From assembly GCA_018819925.1 (NCBI GenBank), contig JAHJPG010000105.1, positions 1 through 63,643 on the forward strand: a stretch of DNA of 63,643 bases, given 5' to 3'. This DNA comes from Pseudomonadota bacterium (GTDB lineage Bacteria > Desulfobacterota > Desulfarculia > Desulfarculales > Desulfarculaceae). Position numbers and translations under genes: made by a program. The notes under the pieces are model-generated. The model was given only the letters and a program-made list of their open reading frames with translations, ran no database searches and was not told the DNA's origin. Positions 2,047 to 8,666 of this stretch are shown here, piece after piece (the first letter of the stretch is position 1; each line of letters begins with the position of its first letter).

Positions 2047-2071
2047 CTTGCAAAAAAATCTGAACCTGCTC

Positions 2072-2109
2072 TTGACAAACTTGCCTATTTGGCCAATATT
2101 GCAAATAGG
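2072..2109 (+). promoter_or_regulatory. arsR promoter with overlapping ArsR-type operator
   Basis: A perfect sigma-70 -35 box TTGACA (2072-2077) is followed after 17 bases by AATATT (2095-2100) as a likely -10 box. The -10 lies inside an inverted repeat, CCTATTTG (2084-2091) and CAAATAGG (2102-2109), with perfect 8-base arms and a 10-base centre. Repressor bound here would cover the promoter, as expected for an autoregulated ArsR gene. The ribosome site AGGAGG overlaps the right end, 11 bases before the arsR ATG. Confidence 0.7.
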
Positions 2110-2119
2110 AGGTCGTCAT

Positions 2120-2440
2120 ATGGACGCCGAACGGCAAATAAAATTGGAGGCCCGGGCCCGCATCCTCAAGGCGGTGGGCAACGCCAGCCGCCTGTTGATC
2201 CTGGAAGAGCTGGCCCAGGGCGAAAAGTGCGTGGCCGATCTCACCAAGGCGGTGGGCAGCGACATCTCCACCGTATCCAAGCACCTGTCCCTGCTCAAGT
2301 CGGTGGGGCTGGTCAATGACGACAAGCGGGGCAATCAAGTTTTCTACACCCTGCTGGCCCCCTGCGTGCTCAACTTCTTCGACTGCGTGGAGTCGGTGCT
2401 GGAAGCTCGGGTGCAGCATCAGATCGAGATGATCGGCTAG
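2120..2440 (+). CDS. arsR: ArsR-family metalloregulatory repressor
   Basis: A 106-residue winged-helix repressor expected to leave the operator when arsenite binds. The helix-turn-helix spans about residues 37-62 (VADLTKAVGSDISTVSKHLS). The classical ELCVCDL arsenite motif is here EKCVADL (35-41), so only Cys37 remains of the usual pair. Cys82 and Cys89 near the C-terminus could complete a three-thiolate site, as in other ArsR variants. That is inference. The ATG at 2120 behind AGGAGG is chosen over an earlier in-frame TTG at 2048, which lies upstream of the promoter. It heads an operon for arsenic handling, and palindromes on both sides suggest autoregulation. Confidence 0.9.
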   Translation: MDAERQIKLEARARILKAVGNASRLLILEELAQGEKCVADLTKAVGSDISTVSKHLSLLKSVGLVNDDKRGNQVFYTLLAPCVLNFFDCVESVLEARVQHQIEMIG

Positions 2441-2481: not shown

Positions 2482-2505
2482 TTGAGCGCAGGCCTGGAGA
2501 GGGCC

Positions 2506-3678
2506 ATGAAGGAACGCTACAAACTACTAATCATCGTGGCCCTGTTCGCGGCGGCCTATTTCGTGCCCTGGAACAGCGAGCCCATCCGGCGCTCGGGCCT
2601 GGAAGCTTTCATGATGCTCCGGGAGTACGCCCGGGAGCACGTGCTCACCTGCCTGATCCCGGCCTTCTTCATCGCCGGGGCCATTTCGGTGTTCGTCAGC
2701 CAGGCCTCGGTGCTCAAATACTTCGGGGCCCAGGCCAAGAAGTTCCTTTCCTATTCCGTGGCCTCGGTGTCCGGAGCGGTGCTGGCGGTTTGCTCCTGCA
2801 CGGTGCTGCCCCTGTTCGCGGGCATCTACTCCCGGGGCGCGGGCATCGGCCCGGCCACTGCTTTTCTCTACTCCGGCCCGGCCATCAACGTGCTGGCCAT
2901 CGTGCTCACCGCCCGCATCCTGGGCTGGGAGTTGGGCCTGGCACGGGCGGTGGGGGCGGTGGTTTTCGCGGTCATCACCGGCCTGCTCATGGCCCTGATT
3001 TTCCGCAAGGACGACGCGGCCCGCGCCGCCGGCCAGGTCTATTTGCCCGAGGACAGCGCCAGCGGGCGCTCCCTGGGCCAGGAATCGCTGTTCATGCTCA
3101 CCCTGGTGCTCATCCTGGTCTTTGCCGCCTGGGCGCGCCCGGTGGACGGCGAAGCCGGGCTGTGGGCCATGATCTTCAGCATCAAGTGGCTGGTCACCGC
3201 CGTTCTGCTCCTGGCCCTGACCCTGATGCTCAAGGCCTGGTTCAGCCGGGAGGAGCGGGTGGAATGGGTGGAGTCCACCTGGGGCTTCATGAAGCAGATA
3301 TTGCCCCTGCTGGGGGCCGGAGTATTGGTGGCCGGGTTCATGCTGGGACGTCCGGGTCATCCCGCCCTAATCCCCGACGAGTGGGTCAGCTCATCCTTGG
3401 GGGGCAACTCCCTGGGGGCCAACCTGTTCGCTTCGGTGGCCGGGGCCTTGATGTACTTCGCCACCCTCACCGAGATACCGATTCTGCAAGGGCTCCTGGG
3501 CGCCGGTATGGGCAAGGGCCCGGCCTTGGCCCTGCTTTTGGCCGGGCCGGCGCTCAGTCTGCCCAACATGCTGGTGATCGGCGGAGTCATGGGCTGGAAA
3601 AAGACCGCAGTGTTCAGCGGCATCATCGTGGTGATGTCCACCATCGCGGGTTTGTTGTACGGCAACTTTTTTGTCTGA
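2506..3678 (+). CDS. ArsP/SO_0444-type permease (DUF318 family)
   Basis: A 390-residue integral membrane protein with about ten hydrophobic segments in two halves. The hallmark is CSCTVLP (residues 96-102) followed by the FAGIYSRGAGIGPATAFLYS segment, the conserved core of the permease family that includes the organoarsenical exporter ArsP and SO_0444-like metal efflux proteins. The paired cysteines are the likely substrate thiols. The role is probably efflux of trivalent arsenicals or a soft metal across the inner membrane. The start at 2506 follows GGAGAGGG. An in-frame TTG at 2482 abuts the palindrome and is less likely. It is the second gene of the ars operon. Confidence 0.85.
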   Translation: MKERYKLLIIVALFAAAYFVPWNSEPIRRSGLEAFMMLREYAREHVLTCLIPAFFIAGAISVFVSQASVLKYFGAQAKKFLSYSVASVSGAVLAVCSCTVLPLFAGIYSRGAGIGPATAFLYSGPAINVLAIVLTARILGWELGLARAVGAVVFAVITGLLMALIFRKDDAARAAGQVYLPEDSASGRSLGQESLFMLTLVLILVFAAWARPVDGEAGLWAMIFSIKWLVTAVLLLALTLMLKAWFSREERVEWVESTWGFMKQILPLLGAGVLVAGFMLGRPGHPALIPDEWVSSSLGGNSLGANLFASVAGALMYFATLTEIPILQGLLGAGMGKGPALALLLAGPALSLPNMLVIGGVMGWKKTAVFSGIIVVMSTIAGLLYGNFFV

Positions 3679-3696
3679 TAATCGAGGAGACGCATC

Positions 3697-3930
3697 GTGG
3701 AAATAAAAGTATTGGGCCCTGGTTGCGCCAAGTGCAAGAAAACCGAGGCGGTGGTTAGGGAGGCGGTGGCCGAGGCCGGGGTGGCGGCCGAGGTGGAAAA
3801 GGTCACCGGCATGATGGACATCGCCGCCTATGGCGTGCTGGGCACCCCGGCGGTGGTGGTGGACGGCCAAGTCAAGCTGGTGGGCAAGGTGCCCACCAAA
3901 GATCAGGTCAAGGCCTGGCTGGCAGAGTAA
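3697..3930 (+). CDS. Small redox-active thioredoxin-fold protein
   Basis: A 77-residue protein of the small redox-active disulfide 2 type (TM0996/MTH895-like). The active-site motif is CAKC (Cys10, Cys13) after a short first beta strand, and the cis-proline segment is VLGTPAVVVDG. These proteins often sit beside ArsP-type permeases. A role in reducing thiols of the permease or passing electrons to a reductase is plausible but unproven. It uses a GTG start at 3697, with GAGGAG seven bases upstream and no ATG nearby. It lies 18 bases after the permease stop, in the same operon. Confidence 0.85.
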   Translation: MEIKVLGPGCAKCKKTEAVVREAVAEAGVAAEVEKVTGMMDIAAYGVLGTPAVVVDGQVKLVGKVPTKDQVKAWLAE

Positions 3931-3959
3931 ACTATATCTTTTGAGTGGTGGATACTGAA

Positions 3960-4376
3960 ATGGCAGATAGCTGTTGCGCCAGCGGGAGCCAGGTGCTGCT
4001 GCTGGCCTGTTCGGGGGCTTCCAACGTGGGTCAGTTGACCAACCAGGCCTGCGTGGAACTGACCCAGGAAGGGTTCGGCAAGATGTTTTGCCTGGCCGGG
4101 GTCGGCGGCAAGTTGGCTGGTTTCATCCGATCGGTGAAGGACGCGCCGGAACTGGTGGTCTTGGATGGCTGCGAAAAGGGCTGCGCCAAGGCCATCATGC
4201 AGGAAGCCGGTTTGCCCTTGCGGGGCTATGTGGTGCTGACCCAACAAGGCATAGCCAAAAACAAGGACTTCAGCCTCAAGCGCGATGAGATCGAGCAGGT
4301 CAAGAATTTGGTGCGCCGCAACAAATCTCCCCTGGGCATGGCCGCGCCCCAAGGTTCCTGTGGGTGCTGCGGCTGA
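3960..4376 (+). CDS. DGC-domain putative zinc-binding protein
   Basis: A 138-residue soluble protein with the DGC signature LDGCEKGCAK (Asp69, Gly70, Cys71 and Cys75) and a conserved CSG near residue 17. Both ends are cysteine-rich: SCC near residues 4-6 and SCGCCG at the extreme C-terminus. The family is annotated as putative zinc-binding and is common in arsenic and metal clusters. The terminal cysteines could bind arsenite or metal, which is inference. The start is uncertain. The ATG at 3960 is preferred, but GTGs at 3945 and 3948 are in frame and equally close to a weak ribosome site. Confidence 0.75.
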   Translation: MADSCCASGSQVLLLACSGASNVGQLTNQACVELTQEGFGKMFCLAGVGGKLAGFIRSVKDAPELVVLDGCEKGCAKAIMQEAGLPLRGYVVLTQQGIAKNKDFSLKRDEIEQVKNLVRRNKSPLGMAAPQGSCGCCG

Positions 4377-4385
4377 GGAGGGCCC

Positions 4386-4577
4386 ATGCCTGTCCCGTTT
4401 ACGGTTGATATCCTGGCCGCTCCGCCGGAGGAGTTGGTCTGCTATTGCTCCAAGGTGAGCAAGGGAGAGATACTCGCGGCCGTGCGGGCCGGGGCCAAAA
4501 CGCTGGAGGATATAAAAACCGCCACCGGCGCCTGCCGGGAAGGCCGCTGCAAGGAACTAAGTCCCCGGCGCCGGTGA
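4386..4577 (+). CDS. BFD-like 2Fe-2S-binding protein
   Basis: A 63-residue protein matching the bacterioferritin-associated-ferredoxin fold. Four cysteines are arranged CYC (Cys19, Cys21) and CREGRC (Cys50, Cys55), the spacing that binds a 2Fe-2S cluster. Between them runs the helix-turn-helix-like segment KGEILAAVRAGAKTLEDIKT. It probably transfers single electrons in the cytoplasm. In this operon a link to arsenate reduction or to the DGC protein can be suggested but not shown. The start follows GAGGAGG with good spacing. A small hairpin (TCCTCC/GGAGGA, about 4596-4614) sits in the 113-base gap before arsC. Confidence 0.8.
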   Translation: MPVPFTVDILAAPPEELVCYCSKVSKGEILAAVRAGAKTLEDIKTATGACREGRCKELSPRRR

Positions 4578-4690: not shown

Positions 4691-5131
4691 ATGAGTGATC
4701 CGCACAAAAAACGAGTCCTTTTTTTGTGCACCGGCAATTCCTGCCGCAGCCAGATGGCCGAGAGCTTCACCAACGCCCTGCGCGGCGATGAATACCAGGC
4801 CTCCAGCGCCGGGGTGGCCCCGGGCCGGGTGGACCCTAGGGCGGTGGCGGTCATGGCCGAGGCCGGGGTGGACATCGCGGGCCAAAAGTCCAAGGCCGTG
4901 GACCCCTTCATAGGCCAAGACTGGGACTGGGTGGTGACCCTGTGCGACAACGCCAACGAGTCATGCCCCTTTTTCCCCGGGCCGGGGAAGCGGGTGCATC
5001 GCGGTTTTGACGACCCGCCCCTGCTGGTCCTGGGCGCGGCCGATGAAGAAGAGGCCCTGGCCTCCTACCGCAGGGTGCGTGACGAGATCAAGGCCATGGT
5101 GCTGGGTCTGCCCGGCAACCTGCAAGACTGA
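4691..5131 (+). CDS. arsC: Arsenate reductase, thioredoxin-coupled, LMW-PTP fold
   Basis: A 146-residue cytoplasmic arsenate reductase. The P-loop CTGNSCRS (residues 13-20) supplies the nucleophile Cys13. Cys85 and Cys92, in [14 protein letters not shown], form the redox cascade that is finally reduced by thioredoxin. GFDDPP is the conserved general-acid loop. The triad spacing equals that of the Staphylococcus/Bacillus enzyme, so this is the thioredoxin-dependent and not the glutaredoxin type. The product arsenite would be exported by the ACR3 gene 23 bases downstream. The start at 4691 lies after a GTGAGGG-like site. Confidence 0.93.
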
Positions 5132-5154: not shown

Positions 5155-6246
5155 ATGCCGCCCTCCGACGTTAAAAAGCTCTCGTTCCTGGACCGCTTCC
5201 TAACCCTGTGGATTTTCCTGGCCATGGCCGTGGGCGTGGGCTGGGGCTACCTGTTCCCCGGGGTGCGCCAGGTCATGGACCACTTTTCCGTGGGCACCAC
5301 CAACCTGCCCATCGCCATCGGCTTGATCCTGATGATGTACCCGCCCCTGGCCAAGGTGCGTTACGAGCAGTTGGGCCAGGTGTTTACCAACGTGCGGGTG
5401 CTGGTGCTGTCGTTGGTGCAGAACTGGGTCATCGGGCCGGTGCTCATGTTCGCCCTGGCGGTCACTTTTCTTTCGGGGCAGCACGCCTACATGGTGGGGC
5501 TCATCCTCATCGGACTGGCCCGCTGCATCGCCATGGTCATCGTGTGGAACGACCTGGCCCGGGGCGACCGAGAGTATTGCGCGGGGCTAGTGGCCTTCAA
5601 CAGCATCTTCCAGGTGCTGTTCTTCTCCCTCTACGCCTGGTTCTTCATCACAGTGCTGCCCCAGTGGCTGGGCCTGGAGGGCATGGCCGTGCAGGTGTCC
5701 ATGGGCCAGATCGCCCAGAGCGTGTTCATCTACCTGGGCATACCCTTTATCGCCGGAATAGTCAGCCGTGTGGTGGGCCTGAAGCTCAAGGGCCGCCAGT
5801 GGTATGAAGAGGTCTTCATCCCCAAGATCAGCCCCGTAACTCTCATCGCCCTGTTGTTCACCATCCTGGTGATGTTCAGCCTCAAGGGCGAGTACATCGT
5901 GGCCCTGCCTTTGGACGTGGTGCGGGTGGCCATACCCCTGTGCATCTACTTCGTGGTCATGTTCTTGGTCAGCTTCTGGCTATCCCTCAAGGCCAAGGCC
6001 ACCTACGAGCAGGCCACCACCTTGTCCTTCACCGCGGCCTCCAACAACTTCGAGTTGGCCATCGCCGTGGCCGTGGCCGTGTTCGGCATCGACAGCGGCC
6101 AGGCCTTTGCCGCGGTCATCGGCCCCTTGGTGGAGGTGCCGGTTCTTATAGGCCTGGTTAACGTGGCGCTGTGGCTCAAGCGAAAATATTTTCCTTACGC
6201 CTTACAGGGCCCCACCGGCGTATGTCATGTAAGCTGCAAACCATAA
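5155..6246 (+). CDS. acr3: ACR3-family arsenite efflux transporter
   Basis: A 363-residue inner-membrane protein with ten predicted hydrophobic helices. Family landmarks are the N-terminal [20 protein letters not shown], the segment [20 protein letters not shown] with the conserved essential cysteine, and [18 protein letters not shown] near the C-terminus. It exports arsenite using the proton motive force. The position directly after arsC completes the reduction and export pathway. The final residues run into VCHVSCKP. An extra cysteine pair at the cytoplasmic tail is slightly unusual for the family and could be an arsenite-binding tail. Confidence 0.95.
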
Positions 6247-6691: not shown

Positions 6692-7405
6692 ATGGGCATG
6701 TTGGATCAGCTTTTTATCACCTTGAACGCCTGGATCACTTCGGGCAGCCTCATCGCCCTGGCCGGGGCCTTCCTCTGGGGTATGGTCAGCGTGGCCTTGA
6801 GCCCGTGTCACCTGGCCTCCATTCCCCTGATCGTCACCTACGTGGCCGGCCAGGACCAGAGCGTCAAGCCCCGCCACGCCGCCTTTTACGCCGTGGCTTT
6901 CACCGGCGGCTTGTTCGTCACCATCGCTCTGGTGGGGATGGTCTGCGCCTGGCTGGGCCTGATGCTGGGCGACGTGGGGCCCTATTGGACCATCCTGGTG
7001 GGGGCCATTCTGGTTTGGGTGGCCTTGGACATGCTGGGGGTGCAGGCCTGCTCAATGTCCGGCAGTCTCATGGGCCGGCTCAAGGTAAAGGGCGTGGGCG
7101 GGGCTTTTGTCTTGGGCCTGGCCTACGGGGTGCTCTCGGGTTCCTGCACCTTCGGCTTCATAGCCCCCATCCTGGCCATCATCACCGTGCAAAAAAGCAT
7201 CGTCACCGGCTTATTGATGATCGCGCTTTTCGGTATAGGCCACGCCCTGCCCATCGCCCTGGCGGGCAGCTCCACCGCCCTGGTGAGCGGCGTCTTGGAG
7301 AACAACTCTTTCCAGCGCGGCAGCCTTTGGTTCAAACGGGCGGCGGGGGTGGGCATCGGCCTTTTGGGCGGATATTTCATCGTCTCGCCTTTTGTCGGCG
7401 CATAG
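6692..7405 (+). CDS. CcdA-type thiol electron transporter
   Basis: A 237-residue membrane protein with six or more hydrophobic helices. The two redox cysteines are Cys39 in LSPCHLASIP and Cys152 in LSGSCTFGFIAPI, the internal-repeat arrangement of CcdA/DsbD-beta proteins. It would move reducing equivalents from cytoplasmic thioredoxin to the exported thioredoxin-like protein encoded 20 bases upstream. In this context the likely client is the c-type cytochrome encoded just downstream (haem-site cysteines must be reduced before haem attachment) or a periplasmic arsenic-binding thiol. This is inference from order and family. Confidence 0.9.
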   Translation: MGMLDQLFITLNAWITSGSLIALAGAFLWGMVSVALSPCHLASIPLIVTYVAGQDQSVKPRHAAFYAVAFTGGLFVTIALVGMVCAWLGLMLGDVGPYWTILVGAILVWVALDMLGVQACSMSGSLMGRLKVKGVGGAFVLGLAYGVLSGSCTFGFIAPILAIITVQKSIVTGLLMIALFGIGHALPIALAGSSTALVSGVLENNSFQRGSLWFKRAAGVGIGLLGGYFIVSPFVGA

Positions 7406-7439: not shown

Positions 7440-8666
7440 ATGCCGGGTTTTGCCGGGTCTAAGAAAACGCTGGCTCTGGGCGTGCTGGGCGCCGCATTGT
7501 TGCTCTGGGGGGCTGGCCTGGCATGGGCCGGCGGCGGTCAGGCCCAGGTGAAAAGCTTGGCCGGGCTTTTGGAGCGCTACGACTCCAAGCGCTGCCAGGA
7601 GTGCCACGGCGAGATATATGAGCAGTGGTCGCGCTCCCACCATGCCCGCTCCCTCATGGGCCTGGACGGCTTCAGCTTCATGTCCAAGTACCTTCGCAAG
7701 GGGCCGCTGGCCGTGAAGCGGCCTCAGGACGCCACCCTGGCCAATTTCCCCTGCGCCAAGTGCCACCTGCCCCAACTGCTGACCGCCGGCGACCAGGTGG
7801 CCAAGGAGTTGGCCGAGGTGATCTGGCGGGACGACAAGGCGGTGGTGGGCCGCCTGAACATCGGCTGCCTGGTGTGCCACCAGGACAAGGCGGTGGTGCA
7901 TCACCGGCCCGAGCCCGGGGTCTTGTATGGGGCCAAGGCTCTGCAAGACCACGAAGGGGACGTCAAGACGGTGCGGAGGAGCGCCTTCATGTCCTCACCC
8001 GCCTTTTGCGGCCAGTGCCACGGCATGGGCCCCAACTTCGAGTTCACTCCGCCGGTCCAATGCGCCACCCTCTACGGCAGCTATTTGCACGGCTACGTGG
8101 CCGACGGCGGCTCCCGGACCTGCCTGGACTGCCACATGTCCGGCAAGGACCACACCTTCCCGCCCGACTTCAGCGACCGGGAAGGGACGGCCAAACTCTA
8201 CCGCGATGCCCTGCCCATGGAGGTCCAGGCCCTGCCCTACACCTTCCATCCGAGACATGGGCAATACGCGCCCCAGGTGGTTGTGGGAGTCACCATCCGC
8301 AACCGGGCCGGGCACCGCATACCCGACGGCTGACCATCCCGGGCGCAGGCGGTCCTTGAGGCGACCGCCCACGACGAAAACGGACGAGAAGTGTTCAAGG
8401 ATCAACGCATCTTCATGCCCCAATGCACCGACAGCCTGGGGCCGGTCATGGTGCTGGGGCCGGACCGCAAGCTGGGCATAATTAGAGACACCACCTTGCA
8501 GCCGTTCCGGCCCAAGCACGAGAAATTTGTCATCCCGCTTAAAAAGCCCTGCCTGGAGCTGACCCTGCGGGTGAGGCTCTATTATCAGTTGCGCCCGGGC
8601 CAGGAAATTTTACTGCGCCAATGGGAGAAAAAGGTGCCGGTGTCCCGACTGTTTGCCAACAAATGA
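7440..8666 (+). CDS. Pentahaem cytochrome c, probable selenoprotein (UGA at 8331-8333)
   Basis: A 408-residue exported multihaem cytochrome if the in-frame TGA at 8331-8333 (residue 298) is read through. A signal peptide covers residues 1-30. Five CxxCH haem sites are at 52-56, 105-109, 143-147, 190-194 and 228-232, with extra His residues for distal ligation. The C-terminal domain continues the pattern AGHRIPDG-U-PSRAQAVLEA, which in related cytochromes forms a beta domain (AGHxxPTGxPxR, then DxxGxxVF). After the TGA the same frame stays open for 110 more codons with strong G/C third positions, and still reads ENGREVFKDQR and MPQCTDSLGP. A hairpin begins 14 bases after the TGA. The alternative is a nonsense mutation. 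The start at ATG 7440 is set by GGGAGAGG at 7423-7430. It is the last gene of the ars operon. Confidence 0.75.
8348..8369 (+). promoter_or_regulatory. Candidate bacterial SECIS hairpin
   Basis: GGCGGTC (8348-8354) pairs perfectly with GACCGCC (8363-8369) around an eight-base loop, CTTGAGGC. The stem starts 14 bases after the in-frame TGA and the loop 21 bases after it, within the range for bacterial selenocysteine insertion elements. An extra C-G and U-G pair with one bulged base would give a three-base loop, UGA. A G in the first two loop positions, as in the consensus, is then present. High local GC makes chance hairpins common, so this is only moderate support. Confidence 0.45.

Follow-up and report, generated by a model that had tools for sequence, protein, structure and literature searches.

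An ExtKL-type pentahaem cytochrome with a predicted selenocysteine at the end of an arsenic operon in a Desulfarculaceae genome

The in-frame UGA codon

Does the UGA codon within the cytochrome gene at the end of an arsenic (ars) operon terminate the protein or encode selenocysteine (Sec), and what would a selenocytochrome do in such an operon? These questions are raised by a stretch of 63,643 nucleotides (in the following: the window) of contig JAHJPG010000105.1, assembly GCA_018819925.1, from a Pseudomonadota bacterium assigned to the Desulfarculaceae. Judged from the comparison with its relatives, the UGA at positions 8331-8333 almost certainly encodes Sec, and the protein very probably belongs to the ExtKL family of multihaem c-type cytochromes. 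One branch of this family sits in ars operons, and it is this recurrent link that looks new.

On re-reading of the frame, the TGA following the residues AGHRIPDG was found in phase with the ATG at position 7440 and is followed by 110 further codons up to a TGA at 8664-8666, so that the position, the residue number 298 and the extension given in the first-pass annotation of the window were all correct. Five CXXCH motifs were counted (first cysteine at residues 52, 105, 143, 190 and 228), as proposed there for a pentahaem cytochrome, and their cysteine and histidine residues are invariant in the family alignment. The turn around the Sec had been described as 'PTGxP-like', which does not hold, the actual motif being PDG-U-P. 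The ratio of nonsynonymous to synonymous substitution rates (dN/dS) compared to three close relatives (79-84% identical) amounted to 0.14-0.18 before the TGA and 0.14-0.24 after it. On the basis of these ratios, the segment 3' of the TGA is under purifying selection, contrary to the missing conservation that the first-pass annotation had named as a point that would speak against Sec.

Conservation of the UGA column

The homologue alignment proposed in the first-pass annotation comprised 60 sequences (the window gene, homologues and paralogues) and showed a TGA in 52 of them, a TGT (Cys) in four and Val or Ile in two, while the remaining two rows were a partial copy and a distant outlier. TAA or TAG never occupies the column, and the residues of PDG-U-P are conserved on either side of it. 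Since the TGA recurs in 52 of the 60 sequences, it can be attributed neither to chance nor to pseudogene decay or sequencing error. Although the assembly is a draft genome of 145 contigs, in which an error or a decaying pseudogene might be suspected, the TGA was found again in dozens of independent assemblies and the dN/dS after it is low, which makes this possibility hardly credible.

Another explanation would be that the UGA is a true stop, resulting in separate proteins ExtK (297 residues) and ExtL (about 91 residues, from the GTG at 8391), the latter produced via re-initiation. Gene callers divide the frame in this way, as for GSU2937/GSU2936 of Geobacter (PMC5877670, PMC6148476), and many relatives possess in-frame start codons downstream. 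Against this speak the 52 TGA and four Cys codons in the column, from which TAA and TAG are absent, and the conserved residues on both sides of it. Moreover, the commonest downstream starts (offsets 6 and 10) fall inside the hairpin described below and are both GCG in the window, and the solved relative MccSep has Sec at this point. A true stop is thus considered very improbable. The truncation of the cytochrome by standard gene calling, as foreseen in the first-pass annotation, is a reminder that UGA-containing genes of such kind get split.

The non-haem Cys208 as well as His68, His238 and His292, which lie outside the CXXCH motifs, are invariant in 58 of 58 aligned relatives. Two genomes, G327 (loci L075 and L076) and G289 (L074 and L077), contain both the TGA and the TGT (Cys) form of ExtKL and therefore represent a natural Sec/Cys pair. 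At the loci L050 and L063, ExtKL paralogues were found in which Val or Ile replaces Sec, while Cys208 and the invariant histidines are retained; L063 directly adjoins a Cys-form ExtKL.

Family assignment

The read-through protein matched the NCBIfam model NF040886 ('multiheme c-type cytochrome (seleno)protein ExtKL') with 429.8 bits at a cut-off of 250, and this match, containing one TGA, was the single one in the whole genome. Furthermore, a profile of 12 relatives matched the PDB entries 9wt8, 9wt9, 9wta, 9wtb and 9wtc (MccSep and its U325A mutant) with an E-value of about 1e-140. The homology spans nearly the full length and aligns U325 of MccSep with Sec298, the column reading PDG-A-P in the U325A mutant and PDG-X-P in the other chain. 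No paper describing MccSep was found in the literature search.

Since ExtKL is modelled by NCBIfam, is counted among the known prokaryotic selenoprotein families in a 2026 review (PMC13188914), and the Geobacter pair GSU2937/GSU2936 has been described as a single Sec protein split by UGA (PMC5877670, PMC6148476), this kind of protein is already known. The window protein adds a further member to an established selenoprotein family, in which Sec itself is expected. Of the novelty implied by the first-pass annotation, the selenocytochrome as such hence does not stand, whereas the arsenic link holds as a recurrent association in 14 genomes.

Hairpin and selenocysteine machinery

The RNA after the UGA folds as GGCGGUC-CUUGAGGC-GACCGCC, with the loop UGA at 23 nt and an energy of -14.1 kcal/mol. 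It agrees with the constraints described for the bacterial selenocysteine insertion sequence (bSECIS), namely an apical loop at a distance of 16-37 nt from the UGA, a G within the first two positions of this loop and an energy of ≤ -7.5 kcal/mol (PMC13188914), a loose filter that was passed by 48 of 52 TGA genes, but also by three of six genes without TGA. Stronger evidence comes from the codon usage: among 69 testable positions (conserved, with at least four synonymous codons), the lowest codon entropies were determined at 304, 305, 306, 308 and 309, all five of which lie inside the hairpin. The pairing of the window stem was 0.86 where the gene has the TGA and 0.52 in the six genes that lack it. 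Under resampling of synonymous codons, which treats related rows as independent, a pairing of 0.70 (sd 0.017) was obtained and the observed value was reached in none of 1000 trials. Because of this assumption of row independence, ranking the positions of the same sequences by entropy provides the fairer control. Two codons that usually read GTG are GCG in the window, and the stem is retained with a C-G pair replacing the usual U-G.

RNAalifold yielded no consensus structure for 51 TGA segments, because the hairpin is shifted in some lineages, and no Rfam family matched when the window was scanned.

The absence of sel genes had also been named as a point that would refute Sec. The genome contains the set above the respective cut-offs: selA with 621 bits, selB with 389 bits, tRNA-Sec with 73 bits and selD with 369 bits. 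The selD match (locus L081, contig C9:7683-8606 of the same genome) contains one in-frame TGA, and the selenophosphate synthetase is probably itself a selenoprotein, which serves as a positive control. Altogether, the interpretation of residue 298 as Sec, as made in the first-pass annotation, is supported by the family membership, the U325A column of MccSep, the Cys in four homologues, the codon-constrained hairpin and the complete sel gene set. Based on this comparative evidence, SelB with Sec-tRNA almost certainly reads the UGA as Sec, directed by the hairpin at 8348-8369.

The ars operon and its recurrence

ExtKL closes a run of ten genes on the same strand (arsR-arsP-arsE-like trx-DGC-BFD-arsC-acr3-trx-ccdA-extKL, trx standing for thioredoxin), with a gap of 35 bp between ccdA and extKL, and the cytochrome was thus rightly placed at the end of an arsenic operon (Table 1). 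For the BFD-like gene, the top NCBIfam match was the domain of a 2Fe-2S (seleno)protein family, far under its cut-off.

Table 1. Features of the ars operon and of the extKL gene in the window.
Feature	Position	Strand	Basis
ArsR/SmtB-family regulator	2048..2440	+	PF01022, NF033788
ArsP-type permease	2482..3678	+	PF03773 ArsP_1, 257 bits
Small cytoplasmic thioredoxin-like protein, MTH895/ArsE family (redox-active disulfide protein 2)	3697..3930	+	TIGR00412, 103 bits
DGC-domain protein	3945..4376	+	PF08859
BFD-like [2Fe-2S] protein	4386..4577	+	PF04324
ArsC, arsenate reductase of the low-molecular-weight-phosphatase type	4691..5131	+	PF01451; best NCBIfam TIGR02691, 132 bits, under cut-off 174
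ACR3 arsenite efflux transporter	5155..6246	+	TIGR00832, 466 bits, cut-off 283
Thioredoxin-like protein, exported, with CIPC motif and hydrophobic N-terminal stretch; assumed start codon	6276..6671	+	PF00085; thioredoxin models below cut-off
CcdA/DsbD-type transmembrane thiol electron carrier	6692..7405	+	PF02683
ExtKL-family pentahaem c-type cytochrome, predicted selenoprotein, 408 aa with Sec298	7440..8666	+	frame read with TGA = Sec, NF040886, MccSep match (E-value 4e-140)
UGA codon for residue 298 in the motif GHRIPDG-U-P, predicted to encode selenocysteine	8331..8333	+	TGA column in relatives; = U325 of MccSep
Hairpin predicted as bacterial SECIS, outer stem of 7 bp (GGCGGTC/GACCGCC), UGA to apical loop 23 nt	8348..8369	+	bSECIS constraints, codon entropy, pairing

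Homologues of ArsP, ACR3 or ArsC were found near ExtKL in 14 genomes from five families, scored within 5-8 kb flanks in a non-exhaustive sample with several rows on draft contigs. On a tree of 58 rows, the ars-linked ExtKL comprise 13 of the 19 rows of one clade and one of the 39 rows outside (L047). The ars label changes five times on this tree compared to 12.7 times in shuffles, none of 500 shuffles being as low. CcdA and a periplasmic thioredoxin are also present at most ars-linked loci, which show a similar gene content in an order rearranged between the families; at locus L105, ACR3 lies on the opposite strand. Since the order differs while the content stays similar, a functional tie rather than mere common descent is indicated. 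A description of the link between ExtKL and arsenic was not found in the literature searched, which did not cover a 2025 paper on selenoprotein neighbourhoods (PMC12013261), where an earlier report is possible.

Altogether, it is likely that Sec, the ExtKL family membership and a functional connection with the ars operon hold jointly. Several observations weigh against this: the fold energy of the window hairpin is unremarkable for its composition (z of -0.69, single-sequence folding), Cys208 is also retained where position 298 is Val or Ile, six of the 19 clade rows show no ars genes in the stretch examined (one of them, L023, on a short contig), and the genome G358 of the same genus contains an ExtKL (L114) with no ars neighbours. 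Cys208 is a possible partner for Sec298, which the data do not require; it need not be the partner, since it is kept in the Val/Ile paralogues. The copy in G358, together with the lack of ars neighbours at most ExtKL genes outside the clade, would fit a different explanation, in which Sec298 is real but ExtKL serves as an electron carrier of general use in the periplasm, like its counterpart in the ext cluster of Geobacter, and stands beside ars genes only incidentally. The linkage across five families with rearranged order and similar content and the low number of label changes argue against an incidental placement, and we regard this explanation as rather unlikely.

Proposed function

CcdA moves thiol electrons outward (PMC2963123). 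In the window operon it would pass them across the membrane to the periplasmic thioredoxin, its likely client. The exported ExtKL could be the periplasmic electron partner of this relay, exchanging electrons via Sec298 next to a haem. Sec298 stands six residues after His292, which, like His68 and His238, is a candidate distal haem ligand by its sequence context, since it is invariant and lies outside the CXXCH motifs. An AlphaFold2 model from 12 sequences reached a mean pLDDT of 55, too poor to position Sec298 relative to the haems.

In the simplest reading, electrons would travel along thiol relay, Sec, haem and metalloid in either direction, and ExtKL would drive a periplasmic metalloid redox chemistry, most likely of an arsenic species handled by ACR3 and ArsP. 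A metalloid oxyanion is a plausible substrate, since preliminary results cited in PMC5877670 connect Geobacter ExtKL with the reduction of selenite. This role of ExtKL as Sec-haem partner of the CcdA/thioredoxin relay in metalloid redox is put forward as a tentative proposal. Doubtful, and bolder, is the view that the arsenic-dedicated branch itself oxidises or reduces periplasmic arsenic species via Sec298 and haem, fed or drained by the relay; if true, arsenic redox catalysis would here depend on selenium, in an enzyme with no relation to the molybdenum-containing Arr and Aio. Alternatively, CcdA and the thioredoxin could serve the attachment of haem to ExtKL and exchange no electrons with Sec. 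CcdA with ResA-like thioredoxins is generally known as a route of cytochrome c maturation; nonetheless, this alternative is considered unlikely here.

Comparison with known systems

MccSep is a distant member of the family with longer termini than the window ExtKL. ExtKL of Geobacter sulfurreducens (GSU2937-GSU2936) likewise comprises five haems, a Sec in PDG-U-P and a C-terminal beta domain after the UGA. While the Geobacter gene is part of the cluster extHIJKLMNOPQS, which also encodes a rhodanese, a porin and further cytochromes (PMC5877670), the window gene ends an ars operon and its upstream neighbours are ars and redox genes; the ext context forms no part of the family definition. At locus L068, a rhodanese-like gene (about 3662-4213) recalling Geobacter ExtH lies upstream of an ExtKL with no adjacent ars operon. 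The pentahaem cytochrome c552 of Thermochromatium tepidum (PDB 5ze8) is a further relative by sequence profile (E-value 2.7e-17), but only weakly similar and annotated as no selenoprotein. Through the ars link, the role of ExtKL can be tested in a setting other than extracellular respiration.

The combination of CcdA and thioredoxins in ars operons was observed in a 2010 survey (PMC2963123), in which transmembrane electron flow was judged less likely, ArsC being cytoplasmic. These published operons contain the same redox gene set beside arsC and acr3 as the window, and the paper mentions neither a cytochrome nor selenocysteine, whereas the window operon adds ExtKL. A periplasmic selenocytochrome in the same ars operons would give transmembrane electron flow a target.
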